From an uncultured Opitutia bacterium (lineage in GTDB: Bacteria; Verrucomicrobiota; Verrucomicrobiia; Opitutales; Opitutaceae): DNA of 47,269 bases. How positions within the stretch are numbered: the stretch's first letter is position 1; every line of letters starts with the position of its first letter. Of the stretch, positions 41,060 to 47,269 are shown piece after piece. Under the pieces are notes generated by a model that was given only the letters and a program-made list of their open reading frames with translations, was not told where the DNA came from and did not search any database. A program made the position numbers and the translations under genes. The DNA lies in contig CAIMFY010000119.1 in the NCBI GenBank assembly GCA_903840415.1, forward strand, positions 1 to 47,269, in the 5' to 3' direction.

Positions 41060-41946
41060 TGCGTGTGGAAATTCCAACTTGGCTCGCACGGGATTATCCG
41101 TTCGTCCCCGAGATATTCGTCACCCCGCAAGGTGCCCGGATTAGCTTCGTCGATACCGATCCACGCGACGATGAAATCGTGCTGTTGCTGCACGGCAACC
41201 CGACGTGGTCATATTATTTCCGCCACCTGATTCAGGCGCTTGCGCCGCATATGCGGTGCATCGCCCCAGATCATATCGGGATGGGATTATCGGAGAAACC
41301 GGCAGACTACGACTACACACTAGCGAGGCGCATCGCCGACCTTGAGGCACTCGTCGCGACCCTCGGCGTGAAACGCGTGCACCTCGTCGTGCATGACTGG
41401 GGCGGGGCGATCGGGTTTGGTTTCGCGGCGAAACATCCGGAGTTGATTGGCAAACTCGTCGTGCTGAATACCGGTGCGTTTGCCTCATCGCGCCTACCGG
41501 CGCGAATCGCGCTGTGCAAAGCGCCGGTCATCGGCCCGATTCTAGTGCGGGGGTTCAATGGTTTTGCATGGCCGGCGACGTGGATGGCGATGCACCGGCG
41601 CACGCTCTCCACCGAGGAGAAACGCGCTTATCTGCTGCCATATGATTCGTGGGCCCATCGCGTCGCGGTGAACGCGTTCGTGCGCGACATCCCAATGCGT
41701 CCGTCGCATCCGACGTGGTCGACGCTGGCCGCCGTGGAGCAGGGGCTCGTCCAATTTCGCGACCGTCCAGCGCTCATCGCGTGGGGTGGGTGTGATTTTT
41801 GTTTTGACGATCACTTCCTCGCGCGGTGGCGAGAATTCCTCCCTCAGGCAAGCGTTCACCGGTTCGCGGACGCCGGACACTATGTGCTCGATGACGCCCG
41901 CGAGGAAGTCGTCCCGCTGGTCGCTAGCTTTTTGTCTCCGGGGTAA
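41059..41946 (+). CDS. oleB: OleB-like alpha/beta hydrolase (haloalkane dehalogenase superfamily)
   Basis: 295-aa alpha/beta hydrolase. The oxyanion segment LLHGNPTWSYYFRHL, the nucleophile elbow VVHDWGGAIG with Asp as nucleophile, and the late catalytic His in ADAGHYVLDD match the haloalkane dehalogenase/OleB branch. OleB decarboxylates the beta-lactone made by OleC to a cis-olefin. Its place immediately after oleA (TGATG overlap) favours OleB over a true dehalogenase. Its last 23 bases overlap the 3' end of the convergent malQ copy. The expected oleC and oleD do not follow. Confidence 0.8.
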   Translation: MRVEIPTWLARDYPFVPEIFVTPQGARISFVDTDPRDDEIVLLLHGNPTWSYYFRHLIQALAPHMRCIAPDHIGMGLSEKPADYDYTLARRIADLEALVATLGVKRVHLVVHDWGGAIGFGFAAKHPELIGKLVVLNTGAFASSRLPARIALCKAPVIGPILVRGFNGFAWPATWMAMHRRTLSTEEKRAYLLPYDSWAHRVAVNAFVRDIPMRPSHPTWSTLAAVEQGLVQFRDRPALIAWGGCDFCFDDHFLARWREFLPQASVHRFADAGHYVLDDAREEVVPLVASFLSPG

Positions 41947-43210
41947 GCGACACGCCGTCGCGCCCGGTCAACTCCGCGAGTTCGCGGAGGTAGGGGGCGG
42001 AAATTTCGTGCAGTGCACGCAATTGTTCCGGACGGTATCGCCAGCTCCAGTTCCCTTGACTCTTGCCCGGGGAGTTAAAGCGAGCCGCTGAGCCGAGGTT
42101 CATGAGATCCTGCAGCGGAATGACGGCGAGATTGGCGACGGACGCATATGTGGCGCGGATGAAATCCCAGCCGACTTCGCGGCCATCCACCCGGAGATAA
42201 CGTCGCACATGATCACGCGATTTCTCGTCGCTCGCTGCAAACCAGCCGAGAGTAGTGTTATTGTCGTGCGTGCCGGGATAAACAACCGTGTTGGCGCGGT
42301 GGTTGTGCGGCAGGTAGAGATTTTTTGCGTCACCACCGAAAGCAAACTGGAGAATCGCCATACCCGGCAGACCTGTGGCTTCGCGCAATGCCACTACCGA
42401 CGGCAGCAACTCACCCAGATCTTCGGCGATGAGCTTGGCTGCGGGCAGGGTGTCGCGCACCGCGTGGAAAAATTCGAGCCCGGGCCCCGCCTCCCATGTG
42501 CCCGTGCGCGCGGTCGCCGCCGTGGCGGGAATTGCCCAGTAGGAATCGAACCCGCGGAAGTGGTCGATGCGCACGACATCGCACAACGCAAAGCTCGCGC
42601 GCAACCGTGACAGCCACCACGCATAGCCGTCGGCCGCGTGCGCCGTCCAGCGATAGAGCGGGTTGCCCCACAACTGACCGTCGGCAGAAAAGTAGTCGGG
42701 TGGCACGCCGGCGACAAAGGTCGGTCGCGCTGTCGTCGGGTCGAGTTGAAAGAGCTGCGGAATTGCCCAGACATCCGCACTGTCGAGTGCCGTAAATATC
42801 GGTGTATCACCGATGATGCTGATGCCAAAAAAAAATTGCCCGGACGCGAACTTGGTTCCACTGGCTAAAAAACAAATATTGGCAGAACTCATAACCCTCG
42901 ACCCGCGAGGCAAGTTGCGGCGGAGCGGAGATTTTTCGGCAGCAGCAAGTGATCGCACCTCCGCCGGCCATTCCCACCATGGTCGTCCGCCGAAATGATC
43001 TTTGAGGGCGGAGAAGAACGAGTAGCTGGGCAGCCAATCGGACTGCGCTTGTCGGAACGCCGCGATATCGCCGTAATGCAGCGTGCGCTTCGGATCATTG
43101 CACCAGTTGGCATGAGCGGCAAAAAGGAGTGGGAGCTTCAGCCAATACACTCCGCCAAAATCGACGTGATCTCCGCTGAGCGCACGAAGCGATGCCAACT
43201 TATCACGGCT
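41924..43210 (-). pseudogene. malQ: Truncated, frameshifted malQ copy
   Basis: An older copy of the 4-alpha-glucanotransferase gene, clearly paralogous to the intact one at 43806-45407. It lacks about the first 108 residues; homology begins near RALSGDHVDFGG at about 43205. The catalytic pieces VRIDHFRGFD, AEDLG and PGTHDN remain. Internally two frameshifts cancel each other: one near 42905-42920 and one in a run of nine A at 42827-42835. Between them the correct sense (RVEGYEFCQYLFF and QWNQVRVRA) is found in another frame. The reading frame stays open afterwards, but the product should not fold as active MalQ. Confidence 0.85.
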
Positions 43211-43225
43211 CAATATTTGGCATCC

Positions 43226-43744: not shown

Positions 43745-43816
43745 TTGGCGGACGCAGAGCCCTACATCTTGGGCGACGCCAGGAACGAAGAGCTTCCGGA
43801 GATCGCTAGCTTTTAG
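43745..43816 (+). pseudogene. Decayed oleB-like 3' fragment
   Basis: Translated on the + strand this 23-residue piece reads LADAEPYILGDARNE then ELPEIASF before a TAG. It aligns end to end with the intact OleB-like C-terminus FADAGHYVLDDAREE then VVPLVASF (about 14 of 23 identical). The catalytic His is replaced by Pro. Like the intact gene, its end overlaps the 3' end of the convergent malQ. This shows that oleB end and malQ were duplicated together. Confidence 0.72.
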
Positions 43817-45407
43817 GCTGCGGAGTAAGCGACAAACCATCGCGTCCTGAAAGTTCGGCAAGCTGTTTCAGATAGGCGGCAGAGTTGTCGTGCAGCATGC
43901 GCAATTGCTCTGGATGGTAACGCCAGGTCCAGTTGCCCTGGCTCTTGCCGGGTGTGTTGAAACGCGCCTCCGATCCGAGAGCCATCAAGTCCTGCAGCGG
44001 AATCACCGCGAGGTTTGCCACGGAGGTGTAGGACGCGCGGATGAAGTCCCAACCGACTTCGCGGCCATCCACGCGCAGGTAGCGGCGCACATGATCGCGT
44101 GCCTTCTCCTCCGCGCCGACATACCAGCCGAGCGTGGTGTCATTGTCATGCGTGCCGGGATAAATGACGCTGTTCGCGCGGTGATTGTGTGGCAGGTAGA
44201 GGTTTTTTGCATCGCCGCCGAAGGCGAATTGGAAAATTGCCATACCGGGCAGGCCGGTCGCGTTGCGCAGAGCGACAACGGACGGCGAGAGCTCGCCGAG
44301 ATCCTCGGCGATCAATTTGACGCCGGGCAGGGCGCCGTGGACGGCTCGAAAAAACTCCAATCCCGGTCCTTTTTCCCAGCTCCCGGTGCGCGCGGTTGGT
44401 GCCGTCGCCGGGATCGCCCAATACGAATCGAAACCGCGGAAATGGTCGATGCGCACGACATCGCAAAGGGCAAAGCTCGCGCGCAGCCGTGCGATCCACC
44501 AGGCGTAGCCTTCAGCGGCGTGCGTGGTCCAGTGATATAGCGGGTTGCCCCAAAGTTGGCCGTCGGCGGAGAAATAATCAGGCGGCACACCAGCCACGAA
44601 CGTCGGCCGCGCGGTCTGCGGATCGAGTTGGAAGAGTTGCGGGGCGGCCCACACATCGGCACTGTCGAGCGCGGTGAAGATCGGCGTGTCGCCGATGATG
44701 CTGATGCCGAGCTTGGCGGCGCGCACGCGCATCTGCGCCCATTGGCCAAAAAACAGATACTGGATGAACTCATAGGCTTCGGCGCGCATCGCGACTTTTT
44801 GGCGAAGCTGGGATTTTTCGGCGGAAGCGAGCGAACGCATGTCCGCCGGCCATTCCCACCACGGTTTGCCGCCAAAATTATCTTTCAGCGCCGAGAAGAG
44901 CGCGTAACCCGGCAGCCATCCGGCCTGAGTTTGTCGAAACGCCGCGAAATCACCATACGGCAGATCACGTTTCTGATCCTTGCGCCAGTTTGCGTGCGCC
45001 GAAAACAGCAGCGGAAACTTGAGCCGGTAGAGCGCACCGAAATCAACTCCGGCAGTGCTGAGCGCGCGCAAGGGCACGAGCGACTCGTCGGTGAGCAATC
45101 CCGCCGCCGCGAGCGGCGCCGGATCAATCAGGTAAGGATTGCCGGCAAACGAAGAGAAACACTGGTAGGGCGAGTCGCCATAGCCCGTCGGCCCGAGCGG
45201 GCAGACCTGCCAGTATTTCATCCCGGCGGCCGCGAGGAAATCGAGCAGTGCAAAGGCCGCCGCATCAAACGTTCCGACGCCAAACACGCTCGGCAACGAC
45301 GTCGGGTGAGCGAGCACGCCAGCTGCGCGATGGTCAAGCCAGTTGAAGAGCGGTGAACCTCCAGAAACGGATTCGAAAGACGACGAGAGAATGGGAGCAG
45401 TTGCCAT
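43806..45407 (-). CDS. malQ: 4-alpha-glucanotransferase (amylomaltase)
   Basis: MalQ (GH77) transfers alpha-1,4-glucan segments between maltodextrins in the cytoplasm. The 533-aa protein is full length: VLAHPTSLPSVFGVG and CPLGPTGYGDSPYQCFSSFAGN at the N-terminus, then VRIDHFRGFDSYW (nucleophile Asp), IAEDLGEL (acid/base Glu) and YPGTHDNDTTLGW (third Asp). It is the only intact one of three malQ copies in the window. With glgC it supports glycogen or maltodextrin metabolism. Its own 3' end carries the remnant of an oleB-like gene. Confidence 0.95.
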   Translation of the reverse strand: MATAPILSSSFESVSGGSPLFNWLDHRAAGVLAHPTSLPSVFGVGTFDAAAFALLDFLAAAGMKYWQVCPLGPTGYGDSPYQCFSSFAGNPYLIDPAPLAAAGLLTDESLVPLRALSTAGVDFGALYRLKFPLLFSAHANWRKDQKRDLPYGDFAAFRQTQAGWLPGYALFSALKDNFGGKPWWEWPADMRSLASAEKSQLRQKVAMRAEAYEFIQYLFFGQWAQMRVRAAKLGISIIGDTPIFTALDSADVWAAPQLFQLDPQTARPTFVAGVPPDYFSADGQLWGNPLYHWTTHAAEGYAWWIARLRASFALCDVVRIDHFRGFDSYWAIPATAPTARTGSWEKGPGLEFFRAVHGALPGVKLIAEDLGELSPSVVALRNATGLPGMAIFQFAFGGDAKNLYLPHNHRANSVIYPGTHDNDTTLGWYVGAEEKARDHVRRYLRVDGREVGWDFIRASYTSVANLAVIPLQDLMALGSEARFNTPGKSQGNWTWRYHPEQLRMLHDNSAAYLKQLAELSGRDGLSLTPQPKS

Positions 45408-45769
45408 GGCGCAGTCTACCGCGGGGGAGGTGGGTTCATATACTCAAAAACCATTGAGGTATAACTCGCGGTTGTCGACTCGGCGTTGCGGCGATCTCCC
45501 GCGCGCGATGCCACGCGCAATCAACGGGCTCATTCTCGGCCGGAGATGGAATTGGGCGTCCGGCATTCCGTGCGAAGGCGGCGAGGGGACTTGTCGACGC
45601 CGACCAATGGAAGACGAGGCATGGCTTGGGAGGCGCAATTTACGTTTAGCGCCATAGTAAATACTTTCACTAACGTCTAATCTCACCACCTAACTAGCTT
45701 GATGTCTAGTGGCTGCGCAACAGCCCACGCTTAGACCAGTGTTAGCGTTTATCATATTACGTTGCCAAA
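45408..45769. other. Intergenic stretch between malQ and the recombination module
   Basis: About 360 bases without a gene I can support. From about 45650 the sequence becomes visibly more AT-rich than the window average. A short palindrome-like element ACTAG-N8-CTAGT and an imperfect GGCTG/CAGCC hairpin lie at about 45692-45726. The upstream promoter of malQ must be in its left part, but I see no convincing -35/-10 pair. An open frame crossing it on the + strand starts inside malQ and looks spurious. Confidence 0.5.
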
Positions 45770-46153
45770 GTGAAACCGAAGCGCCAAGATAAGCGGCATG
45801 GTTTGTGCCGCCGCTACTGCGTGCTTTCCATCGTTTTGATGCGCCCAAAGATTTCCAATTCTGATTCCGCCAGAGCGCTGCTCCGCCTTGTGGAAACGCC
45901 CGCCGTTCCGCGTATCACTGCCACCGCCCGCATCGTAGCGCAGAACCGCAGGATGATCCGCAAAGCAATGCGATTGGGGCACGGATTGGATACGCTTTCG
46001 CGCGAGCTAAATCTACCGAAACGATCGCTGCAAAGGCAGCTCAATGAAGTGGGCCTATTTTTTCGCAAACCACGCGTGCGAAAGGGGAGCGCTGTGAAGA
46101 AGAATATGGCCGCCATTACTCGCGCAAAAATGGCGGCTTTGGCCAACGTCTGA
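45770..46153 (+). CDS. Small helix-turn-helix protein
   Basis: 127-aa basic protein from a GTG start; an in-frame ATG at 45839 (MRPKISNSDSA) would give 104 aa and may be the real start. The segment AMRLGHGLDTLSRELNLPKRSLQRQLNEVGLFF (about 74-106) looks like a helix-turn-helix with a recognition helix PKRSLQRQL, followed by a very basic tail. I do not recognise the family. Its stop codon lies inside the inverted repeat upstream of the tyrosine recombinase gene, so it may be a partner or regulator of that recombinase. Confidence 0.55.
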   Translation: MKPKRQDKRHGLCRRYCVLSIVLMRPKISNSDSARALLRLVETPAVPRITATARIVAQNRRMIRKAMRLGHGLDTLSRELNLPKRSLQRQLNEVGLFFRKPRVRKGSAVKKNMAAITRAKMAALANV

Positions 46154-46175
46154 TAAAATAGGTTATCAGACGTTG
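46144..46175. repeat. 13-6-13 inverted repeat, dif/lox-like candidate site
   Basis: Left arm CAACGTCTGATAA (46144-46156), spacer AATAGG (46157-46162), right arm TTATCAGACGTTG (46163-46175); the arms are perfectly complementary. The layout ...ATAA-N6-TTAT... is that of Xer dif core sites, and the 13-bp arms recall loxP. It ends 32 bases before the tyrosine recombinase ATG and includes the stop of the HTH gene. Alternatives are an operator or a transcript hairpin; no T-run follows. Confidence 0.7.
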
Positions 46176-46207
46176 ACGCGCCCGGTCCGAAAAATCTAGG
46201 GTGGGAC

Positions 46208-47206
46208 ATGGCAACGCACGCTGCCCTCGCGACGGTGGCGCCGCTGGCGCTTACGGCCGAGCAGTTCCAGGACTTGGCGGCGGTGCCGCCGGAAGTCGAG
46301 TGGTTCGCCAATCTGACGAATCCGAACACCCGCCGGGCCTACCGGAGCGACGTGCGCGATTTTATGGGCTTTCTGGGGATCGCGGCTCCGGTGGAATTAA
46401 GGAAGATCGGCCGGTCGCACGTTCTGGCCTGGCGGAAAACGATCGCACACCTGGCACCGGCCACTGTGCGGCGGAAGGTCGCCGCGGTATCGTCCCTCTT
46501 CGACTATCTCTGCGATCGAAATGCCGTGCTGCACAATCCGGTTGCTGGCGTCCAGCGACCCAAAGAAGGGGCGAACCAGGGAAAGACGCCCGCGATCAGC
46601 GACCGACAGGCGAGGGCGCTTTTGGCGGCGCCACCAGTCGTGACGCTGACGGGAAAGCGGGACCGGGCGATCCTGGCGGTCTTTCTTTTCCATGGACCCC
46701 GGCGAGCCGAAGTCGCCGGGCTGAATGTTGGCCACCTCGCTGATCGCCGCGGGATTCCGCACCTCGAATTCCACGGCAAAGGCGGGAAAATCCGTTACCT
46801 GCCGGCGCATCCCGTGGCGGTCGCGGCCATCAACGAATACCTCGCGGCGGCGGGCCACGGCACTGTCAAAAATGGACCCATGTTCCGGCCGTTGCGAAAC
46901 AGGACGTCGGCAGCAGGAACCGGCGGCGCACTCACGGCGGATTCGCTTTGGCGGATCGTGATGCACTACGCCGAAGACGTCGGAATCGATGTCGCCGGGT
47001 TTGGGCCGCATTCTCTGCGCGCCACCGCCGGCACCAATGCGCTCGAGCACGGCGCCGATCTGGCGGCCGTATCGGAGTGGCTGGGGCATGCGAGTATTTC
47101 GACAACTAGATTGTACGATAAGCGGGTCGTGAGTGGGCTTGCCTCGAAAGAATGGACACCAATTCAGGCGGCTTTGATGTCTTTCGGTTGTTGTTGTATT
47201 TCGTAG
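46208..47206 (+). CDS. Tyrosine recombinase with an IS-derived C-terminus
   Basis: 332-aa site-specific recombinase of the phage integrase/Xer type. The N-terminal SAM-like core-binding domain covers about 30-115 (NTRRAYRSDVRDFMGFLG). The catalytic set is complete: R165 in GPRRAEVAGL, K191 in HGKGGKIRYLP, H268 and R271 in HSLRATAG, H294 in LGHASIS and Tyr303 in TTRLYDKR. It lies just after a dif-like inverted repeat and a small HTH gene. Beyond about residue 306 the sequence no longer looks like a recombinase; it runs into IS3-family DNA and ends GCCCIS, so the natural C-terminal tail has been replaced. Activity may be changed or lost. Confidence 0.88.
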   Translation: MATHAALATVAPLALTAEQFQDLAAVPPEVEWFANLTNPNTRRAYRSDVRDFMGFLGIAAPVELRKIGRSHVLAWRKTIAHLAPATVRRKVAAVSSLFDYLCDRNAVLHNPVAGVQRPKEGANQGKTPAISDRQARALLAAPPVVTLTGKRDRAILAVFLFHGPRRAEVAGLNVGHLADRRGIPHLEFHGKGGKIRYLPAHPVAVAAINEYLAAAGHGTVKNGPMFRPLRNRTSAAGTGGALTADSLWRIVMHYAEDVGIDVAGFGPHSLRATAGTNALEHGADLAAVSEWLGHASISTTRLYDKRVVSGLASKEWTPIQAALMSFGCCCIS

Positions 47207-47269
47207 GCCACAGGTGAGATCTGACCGAGCGAGCTGTGGCGTCTCGTCGGGTTGTAAAACGTCTCGATA
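47130..47269 (-). mobile_element. End of an IS3-family insertion sequence (runs off the window)
   Basis: The last part of the window carries the 3' end of an IS3-family transposase gene on the - strand and the element end. The segment AATGGACACC (47151-47160), just outside the transposase stop, resembles the TGGACAC stretch near IS3-family termini. The exact boundary is uncertain: a TG-starting end at 47130 or 47134 would fit. The other end is outside the window. Confidence 0.7.
47164..47269 (-). CDS. IS3-family transposase OrfB, C-terminal 34 residues (partial)
   Basis: Read from the window edge the - strand gives IETFYNPTRRHSSLGQISP then VAYEIQQQPKDIKAA and a TGA (47164-47166). The pattern FYN-x-x-RRHSSLG-x-x-SP-x-x-YE is the conserved C-terminus of the rve integrase-type OrfB of IS3-family elements, just after the catalytic Glu helix. 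The DDE residues lie outside the window. The gene is convergent with, and overlapped by, the altered tail of the tyrosine recombinase. Confidence 0.88.
   Translation of the reverse strand, partial: IETFYNPTRRHSSLGQISPVAYEIQQQPKDIKAA

Follow-up and report, generated by a model that had tools for sequence, protein, structure and literature searches.

Cre/loxP of P1 consists of 13-bp perfect arms, an asymmetric 8-bp spacer and one recombinase, with one site per replicon. The inner letters of dif, which we take to be ATAA-N6-TTAT, are also those of the site described below, and its 6-bp spacer is the same. Signature IPR036162 is presumably of the serine type. This signature is carried by the plasmid resolvase StbA (PMC6354349, in the accessible part of the paper), and the 'simple' recombinases are described as including mobile-element subgroups in the accessible part of PMC8138268. 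In XerS/difSL and XerH/difH, as presented in the accessible part of PMC5357621, one Xer-like recombinase is paired with one ~30-bp site beside its gene, as likewise seen at the locus studied here. Segments of the type int-antitoxin-toxin, with a 195-aa recombinase, have been reported from pRC12 and pRC18 of Lactobacillus curvatus (PMC7117683, accessible part).

The locus lies in a 47,269-bp stretch of DNA that was analysed at its full length (the window). Its features are the following:

45460-47131, + strand: block common to the window and locus L004 (74% DNA identity), holding the helix-turn-helix (HTH) gene, the site and the recombinase gene as one unit
45839-46153, + strand: small predicted HTH protein, 104 aa, from ATG 45839
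46144-46175, no strand: putative core crossover site, 13-bp arms and an asymmetric 6-bp spacer, AATAGG (46157-46162)
46144-46156, + strand: left arm, putative recombinase half-site, with the HTH stop codon at 46151-46153
46163-46175, - strand: right arm, putative second half-site
46208-47130, + strand: tyrosine recombinase, native part, residues 1-307 (Pfam PF00589 and PF02899; conserved columns)
47131-47269, + strand: end part of a multi-copy insertion sequence (IS), which takes the place of the recombinase C-tail and with which the contig stops

A first-pass annotation of this DNA had described a palindrome with 13-base perfect arms and a 6-base spacer, lying over the stop of the HTH gene and 32 bases before the recombinase gene, and both structure and placement were confirmed at 46144-46175. 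Without any mismatch, arm TTATCAGACGTTG (46163-46175) is the reverse complement of arm CAACGTCTGATAA (46144-46156); the TGA that closes the HTH frame at 46153 falls within the left arm, and the gap from the repeat to the recombinase ATG at 46208 is 32 bp. When spacers of 3-10 were scanned, the palindrome was the only inverted repeat with 13-bp arms in the window. Chance origin was ruled out with 20 first-order Markov copies of the window, none of which contained arms of 12 or more, while arms of 11 averaged 0.2. The proposed check for further copies of the arms was run on the own draft genome (98% complete, 124 contigs), and no second copy of CGTCTGATAA-N6-TTATCAGACG with up to three mismatches was found there, which excludes a scattered repeat family. 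In a folding prediction for 46130-46210, the repeat forms a hairpin (z -3.3). A terminator reading was rejected: no T tract follows the stem, and the repeat is absent from the terminator scan list. No match to a sigma-70-type promoter was found at 45400-46300.

Residues R165, K191/K194, H268, R271, H294 and Y303 of the recombinase are present, and their columns are conserved among relatives; from general knowledge of tyrosine recombinases, we take these residues to be catalytic. The reading frame continues to 47206 within IS sequence, which it enters from about 47131, so that the last ~25 residues are non-native: after position ~307, IS-coded residues stand in place of the tail EDSPTFKVxY conserved in relatives. 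The IS was inserted just before the native stop, and the contig breaks there. Its end has 10 matches in the own genome, nine of them at 100% (the one in the window included) and one partial. The extreme C-terminus of XerC/D-type enzymes contributes to partner contacts. Because this tail has been replaced, the window recombinase may be weakened or inactivated.

Conservation of the repeat beside homologous recombinases had been set as a test of the original reading, and the expectation was upheld. The locus set comprised 71 loci, namely 57 of 74 loci from a homologue search, 13 plasmid loci and the window; the 17 rows dropped (L059, L061-L076) matched over a short length only, in most cases in the query's IS-coded tail, and plasmid locus L118 was excluded as being centred on its own site. 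Sites were scored over 12 core positions of TGATAA-N6-TTATCA and seven outer arm pairs (maximum 19, cut-off 15), the 6-bp spacer being fixed by design both here and in the site alignment. We found a site of this layout within 2.5 kb upstream in 59/71 family loci (window included; relatives 49-90% identical), compared with 0/710 shuffles and 4/63 downstream stretches at the same score; the score was devised after sites had been seen in part of the set, and these controls test abundance, not discovery. The four downstream matches (L013, L041, L109 and L010) have arms unlike the locus's own site where one is present. The window site reaches the maximum score of 19, and an identical 32-bp site is found in L004 beside a recombinase 75-78% identical to that of the window. 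In a free search with spacers of 2-9, spacer length was 6 in 15 of 17 such repeats and 2, with the same centre, in the other two. L080-L106 are 27 loci from relatives' genomes: 26 hold distant recombinases (29-36% identity), the other a fragment of a close relative. Around them, a single copy of the 14-base core was found when up to two mismatches were allowed, in L092. A different type of site was seen at L023:2189 and L121:3870; its left arm is ACGTCCTATAA or AGGTCCTATAA, mirrored by the right arm, which hints at a sister specificity.

No site was found in L003, L005, L010, L022, L029, L032, L040, L044, L045, L051, L110 and L122, 12 of the 71 loci. In L005, L010, L022, L029, L040 and L044, the contig extends less than 1 kb upstream, L032 retains half a site, and the closest recombinase relative by sequence, found in L003 and G024 (85-91% identity), has none. 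A transposon-like block with TGTCG...CGACA ends, present in L113 (G024:C87) and also in L003, stands directly before the ATG of this closest relative; it carries a frame that looks TniA/TnsB-like by eye, and a crossover site lies on neither side of it. A transposon parting the L003 recombinase from its site was considered and rejected, the far flank being without a site.

The two arms change together. In the alignment of 51 of the 59 sites (eight identical or near-identical ones removed, 50 distinct), the spacer-adjacent columns TAA and TTA are invariant, while 9/13 arm pairs show changes on both sides (61 cells vs. 18.5 in shuffles). The covariation score was 0.278, vs. 0.093 in shuffles, a test that ignores relatedness among the sites, and vs. 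0.016-0.090 when the partner was slid by 1-3 columns. Arms GTCTGATAA are those of the window and L004, TATTGATAA and TCTTGATAA are the commonest elsewhere, TGGTGATAA is found on three Pseudomonas plasmids and GTCCTATAA on a Methylotuvimicrobium plasmid, with right arms mirrored or nearly so. Spacers similar to AATAYG recur in either orientation. Mirrored arm changes are as expected if a single protein reads both arms, and symmetric changes would then predict which protein reads which site. If the arms are lineage-specific, the family would also supply new pairs of recombinase and site open to direct testing.

Sites were also counted in 22 genomes and plasmids, chosen for holding such a locus, a choice that guarantees part of the site-recombinase pairing. 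The exact pattern TTGATAA-N6-TTATCAA occurs 25 times in them, and 24 of these sites face a family recombinase within 2.5 kb. With one mismatch, 6/43 sites do so and 37 do not; the backward-read control pattern gave six hits vs. these 37, most of which are in Nitrosomonas, and the excess may be due to word bias or to solitary target sites. Conversely, 33/35 recombinases are faced by an exact or one-mismatch site (one of these, W05:230699, is doubtful), those at W03:10614 and G099:C40 being without one. All six plasmids searched whole contain exactly one exact site. At least two family recombinases are present in 9 of the 22 genomes and plasmids, and at three Nitrosomonas loci (G098:C75, G099:C26 and G105:C28) a single exact site has a family recombinase facing it on either side, one at 68 bp and the other at 759-768 bp. 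Family recombinases with one in-frame stop were seen at G103:C6:92928 and G099:C40:12554, which suggests decay.

In PLSDB, a family recombinase matching 80% or more of the query length occurs in 133 records. The plasmid hosts are chiefly Pseudomonas (103/135 records), small carriers with a site include pPFL (10.3 kb) and an 18.9-kb Nitrosospira plasmid, and the annotation among the matches listed is mostly just tyrosine-type recombinase/integrase. Contigs with family recombinases are labelled with several phyla, many of them being metagenome bins. A phage origin was considered and dropped: the phage matches listed reached only 29-32% identity, and no IMG/VR candidate was confirmed.

Conservation, arm covariation and site-recombinase pairing support the first-pass proposal that the site is dif/lox-like and cognate to the recombinase beside it, and the palindrome is very probably this recombinase's own core crossover site. 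Judged from sequence, the locus is probably a one-recombinase Xer/Cre-like unit, in which two arm-bound protomers exchange strands at the spacer edges and resolve dimers or cointegrates. In the mechanism that we infer, from binding and cleavage positions to resolution, autoregulation and the role of the HTH protein, two recombinase protomers would bind the two identical arms, and two occupied sites would pair on sister copies of a replicon or within a cointegrate. Strand exchange through Tyr303, at the two ends of the 6-bp spacer (AATAGG), would then resolve the dimer or cointegrate. The site overlaps the upstream region of the recombinase gene, so binding may also hold its expression low, and the HTH protein could be a local regulator or an architectural helper. 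Resolution of dimers or cointegrates fits because the arms are palindromic, the 6-bp spacer is asymmetric, there is one recombinase, plasmids carry one exact site each and plasmid location is frequent; inversion and integration fit poorly, because both need a second site, which is missing here. What was a lone palindrome would become a defined candidate enzyme-substrate pair for a recombinase family and, if dimer resolution is its function, an easily overlooked contribution to plasmid stability.

Alternatively, the repeat could be an operator only, bound by the recombinase or the HTH protein to control transcription, with no crossover taking place there. The repeat does overlap the 5' region of the recombinase gene, the HTH gene ends inside it, and the end of the site is within 200 bp of the recombinase match in 32/59 loci. 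However, in the other 27/59 loci the distance is greater, up to 2.3 kb, with other genes between site and recombinase in most loci inspected, the invariant inner TAA/TTA around a 6-bp spacer is the architecture of a crossover site, and AATAYG-like spacers are seen in either orientation. We therefore regard an operator without crossover as unlikely. The autoregulatory operator suggested in the first-pass annotation may exist, since the site overlaps the expected promoter region, but it is insufficient as an explanation, since 27/59 sites are more than 200 bp away; regulation through the site would be compatible with resolution and would leave the distant sites unexplained.

Nor does the site family belong to the HTH protein, whose gene is present in only one of 70 other recombinase loci (L004). 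With homologues in 3/95 relatives' genomes and 2/387 phylum genomes (own included in both counts), the HTH family is too rare for the site to be the HTH gene's own operator. In all four HTH loci (the window, L004, G001 and G034), the HTH gene directly precedes a tyrosine recombinase gene. G001 and G034 have a recombinase from a different subfamily (32-33% identity), together with an imperfect repeat, CATAA-N6-TTATG, that is situated between the HTH and recombinase genes or overlaps the start of the latter; among 1000 shuffles of the respective short stretch, 0 and 1 reached its score (8 core positions and 9 arm pairs), which was chosen after the repeat had been seen. The trio of HTH gene, site and recombinase, for which the first-pass annotation had proposed a search in other genomes, was thus found in L004, G001 and G034, and appears with two recombinase types in a sample of four loci. 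The fold model of the HTH protein has a mean pLDDT of 68.5, and a PDB search gave nothing significant (best E 0.22, Fis chains from E 0.66 upwards), so no fold assignment was used.

The surroundings of the unit bear on another alternative, an attachment site at which the recombinase would excise and insert the unit as an integrating or self-mobile element. In G001 and G024, the ole genes, malQ, lepB, lepA and fabD follow in a row (gene names were assigned from proteins, malQ by Pfam, and the order in G024 from DNA matches to G001). In the window, the ole genes and malQ are followed by the unit and then by the IS at the contig end, and the lepB-lepA-fabD matches are on contig C33, which ends ~0.6 kb beyond the last G001 match. 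Provided that both contigs join, the unit would lie in DNA gained between malQ and lepB; its present replicon looks chromosomal, as the ole genes and malQ match the relatives' loci. Two neighbouring malQ-like (GH77) genes, ~75% alike, were noted at 41924-43213 and 43806-45407, and the former, listed from a TTG start, looks shortened or frameshifted. DNA was gained at a place where malQ and lepB are adjacent in G001 and G024, which speaks for attachment, and the 37 recombinase-less one-mismatch sites in the 22 genomes and plasmids could be targets. However, the site sits inside the L004-shared block (45460-47131), away from its edges, the own draft genome has no second site, and only one of the 25 exact sites is without its own recombinase. 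Self-mobility as first annotated is weakly favoured, since the DNA around the unit is absent from this locus in relatives, but the internal position of the site speaks against it; on balance, an attachment site is quite improbable.

The unit might also be a resolution module of a Tn3-family transposon, of the TnpI/IRS type, that has lost its transposase. A site upstream of a tyrosine recombinase gene together with toxin-antitoxin (TA) genes is the layout of Tn5401 (PMC7157771, accessible part). However, the search for Tn3 transposases, made in 26 genomes or records other than the window's own genome, found none in 12/26, including 5/10 plasmids; elsewhere, the nearest above-cut-off transposase on the recombinase contig is at least about 6 kb away, two sub-cut-off fragments were found 2-5 kb away in G100 and W10, and extra arms are not in excess within 400 bp of the site at 11 loci (window included). 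Such an origin is very improbable. Of 20 proteins from the gaps of 12 loci, picked as likely genes, 17 match Pfam families, nearly all of TA types (RHH, ParD, ParE, Phd, PIN, PemK and TacA; also GNAT, below its cut-off, and nucleotidyltransferase), and in some plasmids a TA pair is on the opposite side of the site. TA genes are frequent company and not part of the unit's definition, because many loci with a close site show no TA pair. In L028:3322-5000, site and recombinase are separated by two tandem TA pairs, between which the first two dozen residues of a recombinase remain. An inversion switch, in which recombination of two inverted copies flips a promoter or gene, is scarcely credible: spacer orientation relative to the gene does differ between loci, but as a rule there is one convincing site per locus or plasmid, and with no second site in the own draft genome, the inversion unit named in the first-pass annotation is unsupported.

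A tree of the recombinases of 54/59 loci (L047, whose orientation is undecided, L054 and three loci without a usable open frame were left out) shows at least nine changes of spacing class (within or beyond 200 bp) and at least five of spacer orientation. Because both change repeatedly on the tree, the flanks of the site have apparently often been rearranged. Together with the stacked TA pairs of L028 and the paired recombinases of the three Nitrosomonas genomes, these changes would agree with a broader reading, which on present sequence data we consider rather doubtful: the family may be an undescribed platform of replicon maintenance, in which recombinase and site are fixed, TA and HTH genes are swapped in and out, and the site is the point of exchange. 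A literature search covering mostly papers free of subscription, and the accessible parts of these, found no description of the site family, and yielded nothing of use on IncP-9 mrpA, considered as a possible known name of the family.

Returning to the one-recombinase unit with its own crossover site, comparison with described systems places it as follows. The XerS-type arrangement of a site beside a single recombinase gene is seen in 59/71 loci, and the window recombinase scores 64.4 vs. the XerS cut-off of 267. According to the accessible part of PMC5357621, XerS and XerH systems act on the chromosome, and difSL, 31 bp long, is termed atypical, whereas the unit of the present family has near-perfect palindromic arms, occurs on plasmids or in acquired DNA, and is accompanied by small accessory genes. 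The best solved relative of the recombinase is XerD (1a0p, E 2.8e-23), but the scores are below the equivalog cut-offs of XerD (133.3 vs. 329.6) and XerC (130.8 vs. 335.15). While XerCD/dif employs two recombinases on unlike half-sites, both arms are alike here and change together, as seen in the perfect arms of the window and the symmetric covariation of 50 distinct sites. TnpI/IRS of Tn4430 and Tn5401 (PMC7157771, accessible part) has the site upstream of a tyrosine recombinase gene and TA genes beside the site, as here, but in the window family neither a Tn3 transposase in close linkage nor accessory direct repeats were found. The pRC12 and pRC18 segments likewise have a plasmid-borne tyrosine recombinase beside a TA pair, and the accessible part of PMC7117683 mentions no cognate site. 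With Cre/loxP, the unit has arms, asymmetric spacer and single recombinase in common, the spacer being 8 bp in lox and 6 bp in the window; a PDB sequence search (E up to 0.001) did not return Cre. By these sequence-based membership tests, the unit is outside XerCD/dif, XerS and TnpI/IRS; by analogy, its functionally nearest counterparts are the single-recombinase Xer systems and Cre/lox.
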